Of a stretch of 64,000 bases of DNA, positions 32,798 to 34,385 are shown piece after piece; position 1 is the stretch's first letter, and each line of letters begins with the position of its first letter. Source of the stretch: Thiohalophilus sp. (GTDB lineage: Bacteria; Pseudomonadota; Gammaproteobacteria; UBA6429; Thiohalophilaceae). The notes beneath the pieces are model-generated. The model did not search any database, was not told the origin of the DNA, and saw only the letters and a list, made by a program, of their open reading frames with translations. Location of the stretch: assembly GCF_034522235.1 (NCBI RefSeq), contig NZ_JAXHLN010000003.1, positions 1,426,001 through 1,490,000 on the forward strand. Direction: 5' to 3'. The position numbers were made by a program, and so were the translations under genes.

Positions 32798-32858
32798 TTC
32801 ACGTGAAGCCGTAGACAGGTTGCTCAGTTAACAGTATGCCGGCATAAGCTGATACACA

Positions 32859-32893
32859 CCTCGTTACTCGCTCCTCGTATCTCGCTCCTCCCC
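32859..32893 (+). repeat. CTCGTCC-family repeat followed by a CCCC-GAA-GGGG hairpin
   Basis: CCTCGTTACTCGCTCCTCGT and onward, running directly into CTCCCCGAAGGGGGAG. The same composite (heptamers plus CCC-GAA-GGG) occurs at 35151-35188 and 58951-59002. Confidence 0.7.
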
Positions 32894-33043
32894 GAAGGGG
32901 GAGTAGGCCCGATATAGCGAAGCGGTATCGGGCTTTCATCTTACTCCCTCCCCACCAAGGGAACACCCGAGGGCATAAAGGTTAGAGCCTGTCCCGCACT
33001 TGATGTGGGGGAGGGGCGATCAAGCATCCAGCTTCTATCTAAA

Positions 33044-33441
33044 TGATCGCCCTCCGGGCGGGCTAAATTTTGAAAGCGCTGACCCGCCAGCGTGCCTCGG
33101 GTTTATCTGACGAAGACCGTCCATGGTCTTCGCACTTCGTGCAGCCTCCGGCTGCCCAAATTCGTTCCCGACGAATTTGTCTTTGTCACGCGACAACGAA
33201 ACGAACCAGGGAAACGCGCCCGAAAGACGCCGCCGGTCCAGCCATTTCCAATGGCTGAACCGGTTCCCTGCGCTTCTCGTTCCAGTCGGGCTCGCCAGAT
33301 GGCACCTCCGTGTGTCGACTGGTGAGTGCGCGGCTTGTCTCATAGAACCCCTCCGGGTTCATTGCGAGTACCCTGCGCTTACAGCGTCAGGGCAACCCTA
33401 CCTGTCTTCGATAGGTCAGGGCACCCTGCGCGCACCCTGAC
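33044..33441. repeat. Array of about eleven consecutive mini-hairpins, many with 3-nt loops
   Basis: Perfect or near-perfect stems follow one another almost without gaps: CGCCC-TCC-GGGCG (33048-33060), CGAAGACC/GGTCTTCG (33111-33132), GCAC-TTC-GTGC (33132-33142), GCAGCC-TCC-GGCTGC (33141-33155), AAATTCGT/ACGAATTT (33158-33178), TTGTC/GACAA (33183-33196), CAGCCATT-TCC-AATGGCTG inside a longer stem (33233-33263), GAACCC/GGGTTC (33345-33360), CGCT-TAC-AGCG inside CCCTG/CAGGG (33371-33392), ACCTGTC-TTC-GATAGGT (33400-33416) and GTCAGGG/CCCTGAC (33415-33441). Read on the minus strand the 3-nt loops are GGA, GAA and GTA. Confidence 0.8.
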
Positions 33442-33613
33442 GGGCTAATCCTCTTTCCACTGCGATGCTCGGCGGCGTCAGCCGGGATCAAAAACCGATT
33501 AGCCGACGTGAGGGAAACTGCTGATATCCAGCCAGATCATCAATGCTTGCCTCGAAGATCCCATGATCAGTTGCTAGTATTAATAGATTCCTGAATGTAA
33601 CAATAATCTTGAT

Positions 33614-33652
33614 AGGCGGACGTCTGCCTGTAACCGTAAAAGACAGGTGTCT
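33614..33652. promoter_or_regulatory. Two adjacent palindromes upstream of the VIT transporter gene
   Basis: AGGCGGACGTCTGCCT (33614-33629, one mismatch) and AGACAGGTGTCT (33641-33652). They lie 44-82 bp before the start codon and could be an operator for metal-responsive control. Inferred from symmetry only. Confidence 0.35.
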
Positions 33653-33695
33653 GTTTAACTGCTGTTAGCTGTGATTATAATCAACGGGAGATCAT

Positions 33696-34385
33696 ATGAG
33701 TCACGCAGAAATCCACAGATCACACCGAGTAGGATGGTTGCGTGCGGCCGTGCTCGGGGCAAATGACGGAATAGTTTCAACTGCAAGTCTTATTATTGGT
33801 GTTGCAGCTGCAAACACTGCACATGAAGGAGTTCTTTTAGCCGGTGTTTCCGGCCTGGTTGCAGGCGCTATGTCTATGGCTGCTGGTGAGTACGTATCCG
33901 TCAGTTCCCAGTCTGATACTGAAAATGCAGATCTTGAACTTGAGAGAGAATCATTAGAAGAAGATATCGAGTTTGAAAAAGATGAGCTTGCCGCAATATA
34001 TGAAGGAAGAGGTGTTGAGCCATTGCTGGCACAAAAAGTGGCTGAGCAGCTTATGGCGCATGATGCTCTTGGGGCGCATGCTAGAGATGAAATAGGTATC
34101 TCAAAGAGTGGTAATGCGCGGCCAGTTCAAGCCGCGTTTTCTTCAGCAGGAACCTTTTCAATTGGTGCCGCGCTTGCGTTAGTTGTTGCATGGGTGGCGC
34201 CGGTTAACTTGCTGATCCTTCTTGTTGCTGTGTTTTCTCTGGTTTTTCTTGCTCTTCTTGGCGGTATTGCGGCGCGTGCAGGTGGCGCATCAATAACTGC
34301 CGGTGCTATCAGAGTTACATTCTGGGGTGCACTCGCAATGGCGCTGACGGCAGGAGTAGGCAGAATTTTTGGTGTTGTTGCATAA
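33696..34385 (+). CDS. VIT1/CCC1-family iron/manganese transporter
   Basis: 229 residues. The family pattern is WLRAAVLGANDGIVSTASLIIGVAAA in the first membrane segment, GAMSMAAGEYVSVSSQSDTE ending the second, a Glu-rich cytoplasmic metal-binding helix (LELERESLEEDIEFEKDELAAIYEGRGV) and three C-terminal membrane segments (GAALALVVAWVAPV onward). It moves Fe2+ or Mn2+ out of the cytoplasm. Codon use is clearly AT-richer than the neighbours (frequent CTT, GAA, AAT, GCA) and the gene sits next to a repeat-dense tract, so recent acquisition is plausible. Shine-Dalgarno GGGAG. Confidence 0.9.
   Translation: MSHAEIHRSHRVGWLRAAVLGANDGIVSTASLIIGVAAANTAHEGVLLAGVSGLVAGAMSMAAGEYVSVSSQSDTENADLELERESLEEDIEFEKDELAAIYEGRGVEPLLAQKVAEQLMAHDALGAHARDEIGISKSGNARPVQAAFSSAGTFSIGAALALVVAWVAPVNLLILLVAVFSLVFLALLGGIAARAGGASITAGAIRVTFWGALAMALTAGVGRIFGVVA

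Follow-up and report, generated by a model that had tools for sequence, protein, structure and literature searches.

The dense mini-hairpins at positions 33044 to 33441 of the window, by which we mean the whole 64,000-nucleotide stretch of Thiohalophilus DNA analysed here, belong to a multi-copy conserved module that, within the genus, is often tied to integron attI sites and gene cassettes, a connection that goes beyond the original prediction. We propose, with a probability of roughly two in three, that this folded module of ~270 nt forms, together with a Pc-like promoter and an attI copy, integrase-less docking platforms that are scattered and served in trans by a single IntI, and that its fold, comprising pseudoknots and a probable triple helix, is maintained by selection. 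According to this model, many modules would have become joined to a Pc-like promoter and an attI copy, the resulting units would have been spread along the chromosome, the module in each of them taking the position of intI relative to attI, and a single IntI made elsewhere would insert cassettes into these platforms in trans, or would formerly have done so. The common description of an integron is that of a single platform next to its integrase. If the model is true, one integrase could, through dispersed attI platforms, supply many chromosomal sites with accessory genes, each site having a promoter of its own.

The dense stems of the stretch are real and exceed those of shuffled controls. Folded as RNA, positions 33040 to 33500 reach -200.2 on the plus strand against -160.6 (SD 6.1) for shuffled sequences (z = -6.46) and -209.6 against -177.7 on the minus strand (z = -5.19), with 0 of 100 shuffles as good on either strand. 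Exact coordinates place local stems at 33045-33063, 33112-33131, 33132-33142, 33141-33155, 33158-33178, 33233-33263, and 33282-33326, the stems 33132-33142 and 33141-33155 having two bases in common. The predicted minus-strand loops GGA or GAA are present in the stretch, and its C-TNCG-G loops are, in the plus-strand reading, UNCG tetraloops, so that the loop type alone cannot separate DNA from RNA. The borders first given to the array, 33044 and 33441, come near to those of the element but are not natural ones, the conserved module extending from ~33045 to 33486 and its attached attI-like part to 33671. As predicted, nothing protein-like was found as far as tested: a protein-coding reading of the module, through a 102-amino-acid frame on the minus strand, was rejected, this frame having no Pfam match. 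The upstream stem containing GCGAAGC, which had been described together with the array, does exist at 32907-32933 but is a separate short palindrome, apart from the module. This 27-bp palindrome (GCCCGATATAGCGAAGCGGTATCGGGC) recurs at least 22 times elsewhere in the own genome (40 of 74 candidates scored) and has no second copy within the window.

The window copy of the module (33045-33486), delimited by BLAST, anchoring, covariation, and strand lean, is assigned to the minus strand, to which wobble counts lean. It begins with a 5' hairpin with a TCCG (UNCG/C-GNA-G) loop at 33045-33063, apparent in the sequence and corresponding to helix 1 of the covariation alignment, in which 81.7% of the cells are paired. 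The PK1 hairpin, GCGCTG-ACCCGC-CAGCGT at 33076-33102, was recognized by module comparison; its loop ACCCG can pair with CGGGT, and the genus has one other allele, CTCGC with GCGAG. Extra mini-hairpins of ~75 bp (approximately 33107-33181), identified by comparison with locus L033 and other copies, lie within the 5' arm of stem S1 and are followed by the 3' part of S1 with the linker and tail of the PK2 pseudoknot and putative triple helix (33182-33221; PK2 and mirror analyses), a partly decayed segment; the window copy is absent from the listed parsed cases of the PK2 test. The 5' arm of the outer stem (CCCG..GACGCCGCCGG, 33219-33236), seen by repeat search and as helices 7 and 8 of the covariation, has its partner in the 3' arm at 33470-33486 (repeat search, covariation, and stem coordinates). 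Hairpin P0 at 33233-33263 carries, by copy comparison, the allele TCCAGCCATT/AATGGCTGAA, and some other copies have unrelated yet self-paired alleles at this place. The internal-loop motif CCCTGCGCTTCTCG at 33266-33279 contributes 12 invariant columns to the alignment A1, whose copies were partly found via the motif itself. The inner hairpin domain Pa occupies 33282-33326 (covariation helices 9 and 10 and stem coordinates), a 93-bp mini-element is inserted at the apex of hairpin Pb (33335-33427; BLAST and copy comparison), and a second internal-loop motif, CTGCGATGCTCGG, known from the alignment and used in pattern scans, is found at 33460-33472. The 93-bp mini-element also exists outside modules, at L040 to L042 and in part at L043, and the inner-hairpin tips of several modules (window, L036, and L080) carry small hairpin mini-elements, of which there are at least two kinds.

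Beyond the outer stem, the features of the window copy read on the plus strand. A Pc-like promoter at 33552-33580 (TCGAAG, 17 nt, TAGTAT, with a TGC-extended -10), putative in function, has a position that is conserved in most platform rows. An attI-like site with the repeat units GGCGGACGTCTGCCTG and GACAGGTGTCTGTTTA at 33611-33663, decayed and missed by BLAST, was recognized by alignment with the attI beside intI and ends in the core GTTAGCTG at 33664-33671. The cargo slot holds a VIT1-family transporter gene at 33696-34385 (Pfam VIT1, 215.7 bits), and no attC partner CAGCTAAC of the window core occurs between 33001 and 37000. The window copy is thus a worn one, given its 93-bp insert, its interrupted S1, its diverged attI-like repeats, and the lack of an attC partner behind VIT1. 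The original prediction had offered a structured RNA, a cruciform-prone DNA site, or a mobile-element remnant; a structured nucleic acid and a repeated element it is indeed, but the term remnant suits the decayed window copy only.

Homologues of the array turned up in its own genome, in a sister species, and in other genera. BLAST of 32800-33700 against the own genome returned 57 matches, including parts, inserts, and the separate short palindrome, and anchoring on the most conserved motif yielded 12 copies in the own genome (the window copy and 11 others) and 14 in the sister species. Their shared plan of ~270 nt consists of the 5' hairpin, a PK1-type hairpin in many copies, a long S1 with a purine-rich linker and tail, the outer stem, the unpaired motifs CCTGCGCTTCTCG and CTGCGATGCTCGG, an inner stem, and inner hairpins. 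A scan of the GTDB collection for the two-motif pattern at the right spacing found at least 120 stretches, of which 80 loci are listed; the hosts among the matches listed are Stenotrophomonas, Luteimonas, Methylomonas, Methylovulum, Nevskia, Ectothiorhodospiraceae, and Thiohalobacter, together with Acidovorax, Burkholderiales, Desulfobacterales, and one Phycisphaerales MAG. The exact two-motif pattern is present in 14 of 275 sampled Gammaproteobacteria genomes (own and sister included), with up to 24 copies per genome, a host count that is an undercount because exact matching sees just 6 of the 12 own copies; a reversed control pattern was found in none of the same 275 genomes. Two DNA queries had no plasmid match, and the exact pattern had one match in viral contigs (L209:7656-7761). 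A tRNA, tmRNA, or known RNA was rejected as the identity of the array, none being found in the window. Hence the repeat is widespread, strongly structured, and apparently uncatalogued: this conserved and spread Pseudomonadota element, whose pseudoknot covaries and which probably forms a triple helix, has no match in Rfam 15 (4227 models, gathering threshold) in the sequences searched, namely the window, with 0 matches, and 17 chosen loci, with two tRNAs and nothing else, and three sub-threshold Rfam matches had E values of 0.39 to 4.

The link between the module and integrons comes from the sequence that follows it. The integrase model has nine recombinase matches in the own genome, a single one of which exceeds the cut-off (456 bits versus 265; C2:68980-69915) and represents its integron integrase. 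By coordinates, none of the nine lies within 9 kb of a module, remnants too short for the search being possible there, and no intI was found at the platforms. Beside intI, an attI and six attC-like sites bounding cassettes were recognized by eye, and no module stands beside the attI of this true integron. The region 3' of many modules is homologous to the intI-adjacent attI, the best match covering 61 nt at 92%. An attI-like end with at most four substitutions is present in 15 of the 26 module copies of the two genomes, in 11 of these 15 at 146 to 210 nt from the module, and a four-substitution match in a long search stretch could be due to chance; 13 of these 15 ends possess a GTT core, which is lost in L035 and L077, and the attI-like ends of the window copy and of L033 were recognized by eye in addition. 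The paired repeats of the attI-like sites in L037, L039, L031, and L038 are, by eye, of about three kinds, AGAATCT/AGATTCT, AGACGTCT, and GAACGGCCG, and the two repeats within a site often agree, as if such sites were meant for different integrases. In most of 10 platform rows, but not in L073, a block made of a TCGAAA-like box and a TGC-extended -10, 16 to 18 nt apart, can be seen by eye, the -10 lying about 85 to 100 nt before the core; the true attI row has only the -10 part of this block in common. This Pc-like block would work as a promoter.

Cassettes were recognized by a partner test, in which the first bases after the crossover recur, reverse-complemented, at the start of attC, with the true integron as positive control. 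Of the 13 cores, 7 have an exact 8-nt R''/R' attC partner, compared with 4 among 156 mismatched pairings, so that a good part of the platforms carry attC-ended cassettes; the remaining 6 cores are without one, as is the VIT1 slot of the window. A Pfam scan of 8 proteins, with most cargo genes outside it, identified a BrnT toxin behind the first module of L032, DUF4156 behind L031, and VIT1 in the window. We infer that the single IntI acts in trans on these platforms, or did so in the past.

Moreover, the content of the platforms turns over between the sister species. Five syntenic pairs of loci share the upstream sequence and the module (window/L076, L032/L079, L034/L073, L036/L074, and L037/L080), and directly behind the module none of the five shows an alignment of 250 nt or more; the VIT1 slot of the window has no alignment with the sister species. 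Synteny resumes further on at the window and at L037, and a sixth locus, L033, behaves alike, synteny returning there after a stretch that is longer in the sister species. Putative ligA, pilU, and hisC were named by eye among flanking genes. In the sister counterpart of the window (L076), a cassette with an exact attC partner 508 nt on was found. A full module at the counterpart of L038 is unconfirmed because the sister locus ends in module pieces (C6:189009-189129). The search for a full intI in the sister species returned weaker recombinase matches only, and therefore its platforms are not in use by an IntI of its own now.

These results bear on the possibility, which we consider rather unlikely, that the module is an independent structured RNA or mobile repeat whose nearness to attI is a historical accident, the pair having been co-duplicated afterwards with no function in cassette exchange. 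Such an accident would agree with the modules of the genus that have no recognized attI (L034, L036, L071, L074, L075, L079, and others) and with an attI copy and promoter block that stand without a module at L206:1790-1935. It would also agree with the presence of the module in many genera without attI or cassette signal, this signal being found at 0 of 84 modules of other genera in a strict, insensitive, and hence weak test, whose yield was also low for the own genus (1 of 24) and equal in its upstream control (1 of 24). Against it stand the frequency and narrow spacing of the attI-like ends given above and, between the sister species, the retention of the module at orthologous loci while the downstream content changes. 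At L206, the small genes behind the attI copy resemble, by eye, a toxin-antitoxin pair.

The docking-platform model also includes the fold of the module. Alignment A1 draws 36 sequences from the 112 modules that were parsed; modules carrying the long inserts, lacking a complete 5' part, or having the other type of inner domain were left out, and rows L031 and L079 end early at an insert. The tested structure was read from one Methylomonas copy. In these 36 sequences, 83.4% of the cells are paired compared to 66.4% after shuffling, two-sided changes affect 60 of 81 pairs, and 442 cells are doubly changed compared to 163, none of 500 shuffles being as high in any of the three measures (all shuffles in this study ignore kinship among copies). 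When the partners are slid by 1 to 3 columns, the pairing falls to 40 to 50%, a control that favors the structure because it was derived from one aligned row, and further pair types were not above shuffles (324/500). The homologues thus display many compensatory changes, as structured noncoding RNAs in general do, and the original prediction withstood two of its checks, this one and the folding against shuffled controls.

Two pseudoknots covary as well. For PK2, formed by the S1 loop and the tail behind the linker, 4-mer complementarity holds in 51 of the 67 unique pairs, compared to a mean of 21.3 and at most 33 in 2000 shuffles (33 of 112 modules unparsed and uncounted). For PK1, which many of the parsed modules lack, loop and partner are complementary in 21 of 42 cases (shuffled mean 9.0, maximum 17; 51 of 112 unparsed and uncounted). 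The linker is the mirror of the purine strand in the 3' arm of S1, position of the G included, in 29 of the 30 unique variants, shuffles giving 10.0 on average and 18 at most; this test required purine tracts at both places, which narrows the view, shuffled among the accepted cases, and left 53 of 112 modules unparsed and uncounted. A Hoogsteen third strand requires such a mirror relation, and the covarying pseudoknot together with the mirror linker suggests a triple helix. On the minus strand, and following the rules of triplexes, a U-rich linker would probably run parallel to an A-rich strand with U.A-U and C+.G-C triples within an H-type pseudoknot. The telomerase-RNA-type H pseudoknot with U.A-U triples offers a likeness, in that a U-rich linker would here face a long U-A-rich stem on the minus strand; in contrast, our element is a bacterial repeat, and its triple is deduced from covariation only.

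The stems themselves carry a modest strand signal. Mismatches in the stems, read on the plus strand, comprise 54 A-C, equivalent to G-U on the minus strand, versus 20 G-T (18 to 4 in S1 and 36 to 16 in the rest), and the alignment gives 51 to 34. These wobble counts favor the minus strand, modestly, and the lean is not decisive because the copies are related. Among the 85 modules, which include the window copy, both neighbor genes were found for 51, with 17 in ++, 17 in --, 9 in -+, and 8 in +- orientation; the module, whose neighbors show no preferred orientation, is therefore unlike a leader or trailer that belongs to one particular gene. Taken together, the pseudoknots, the mirror linker, and the wobble counts lead us to infer that the folded form is most likely an RNA made from the minus strand.

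The main rival to such an RNA is a role of the module as DNA. One would then deal with a DNA-level repeat in which template switching at quasi-palindromes and insertions at hairpin tips make the stems, and in which single-stranded DNA or a cruciform acts or persists with no RNA involved, an explanation that we regard as unlikely. It would account for the P0 hairpin alleles that swap whole between copies, for the inserts at hairpin tips in several copies, and for the lack of a preferred orientation of the neighbor genes, and C-GNA-G loops are stable in DNA. Nevertheless, template switching within a hairpin would, as we argue, not make PK1, PK2, and the mirror linker covary, and the invariant columns of the unpaired motifs also speak against it.

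Returning to the docking platforms, the module has the place of intI relative to attI and, to judge from the strand lean, is oriented as that gene would be, which suggests that the module may be read from an old integrase promoter. It may also help the platform instead of merely travelling along. A bolder form of the model, which we put forward with considerable doubt, would be a distributed integron with one integrase and about ten attI platforms across the chromosome; at each of them a pseudoknotted, triple-helix RNA would occupy the integrase position as a mark and act in the capture or expression of cassettes. That the platforms are remains of complete integrons, copied around the genome, deprived of intI, and then filled by the module at the intI position, appears improbable: the module does stand in the intI place and intI pseudogenes and losses are reported to be common in the excerpted text of PMC2426708, but of the recombinase matches only the integrase at C2 passes the cut-off and none is close to a module, short pseudogene remnants being possible.

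Compared to a chromosomal integron platform (intI, Pc, attI, and cassettes), the docking platforms share the attI homology, the putative Pc-like promoter, cores of the GTTRRRY type, and attC-ended cassettes, and differ by the lack of intI, by their number per genome, and by a structured module in the intI position. CALINs, as presented in the excerpt of PMC7923331, likewise have cassettes without a nearby integrase but are defined by attC alone, whereas here many slots have an attI copy and a promoter block at their head. In mobile integrons, the delta-attI cassettes are, according to the excerpt of PMC12901181, extra attI pieces outside the primary site and usable by IntI1; they replace attC in one array, in contrast to the longer, chromosome-dispersed, and module-joined copies described here. 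REP and BIME palindromes (excerpt of PMC2817692) are also multi-copy, intergenic, and palindromic, unlike the present module in its length of ~270 nt, its shared multi-stem pseudoknotted fold, and its conserved unpaired motifs. Work on Pc in Vibrio cholerae, to judge from the excerpt of PMC3948777, is among the closest published, and neither dispersed attI platforms nor the module were found among the matches listed from open-licence full text.

Several arrangements of the module and of the platforms were seen in passing. In the distant genome G050, two modules (L063 and L064) stand head to head by eye, with their 3' ends facing and ~100 nt between them. At G001:C2:156023-156442, upstream of one platform, the 5' part of the module is tandemly repeated with a 117-bp period. 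Finally, L032:3680-8370 contains two near-identical platform copies, 3415 bp apart, whose 3' tandem repeats include CTCGTCC runs of unequal length.
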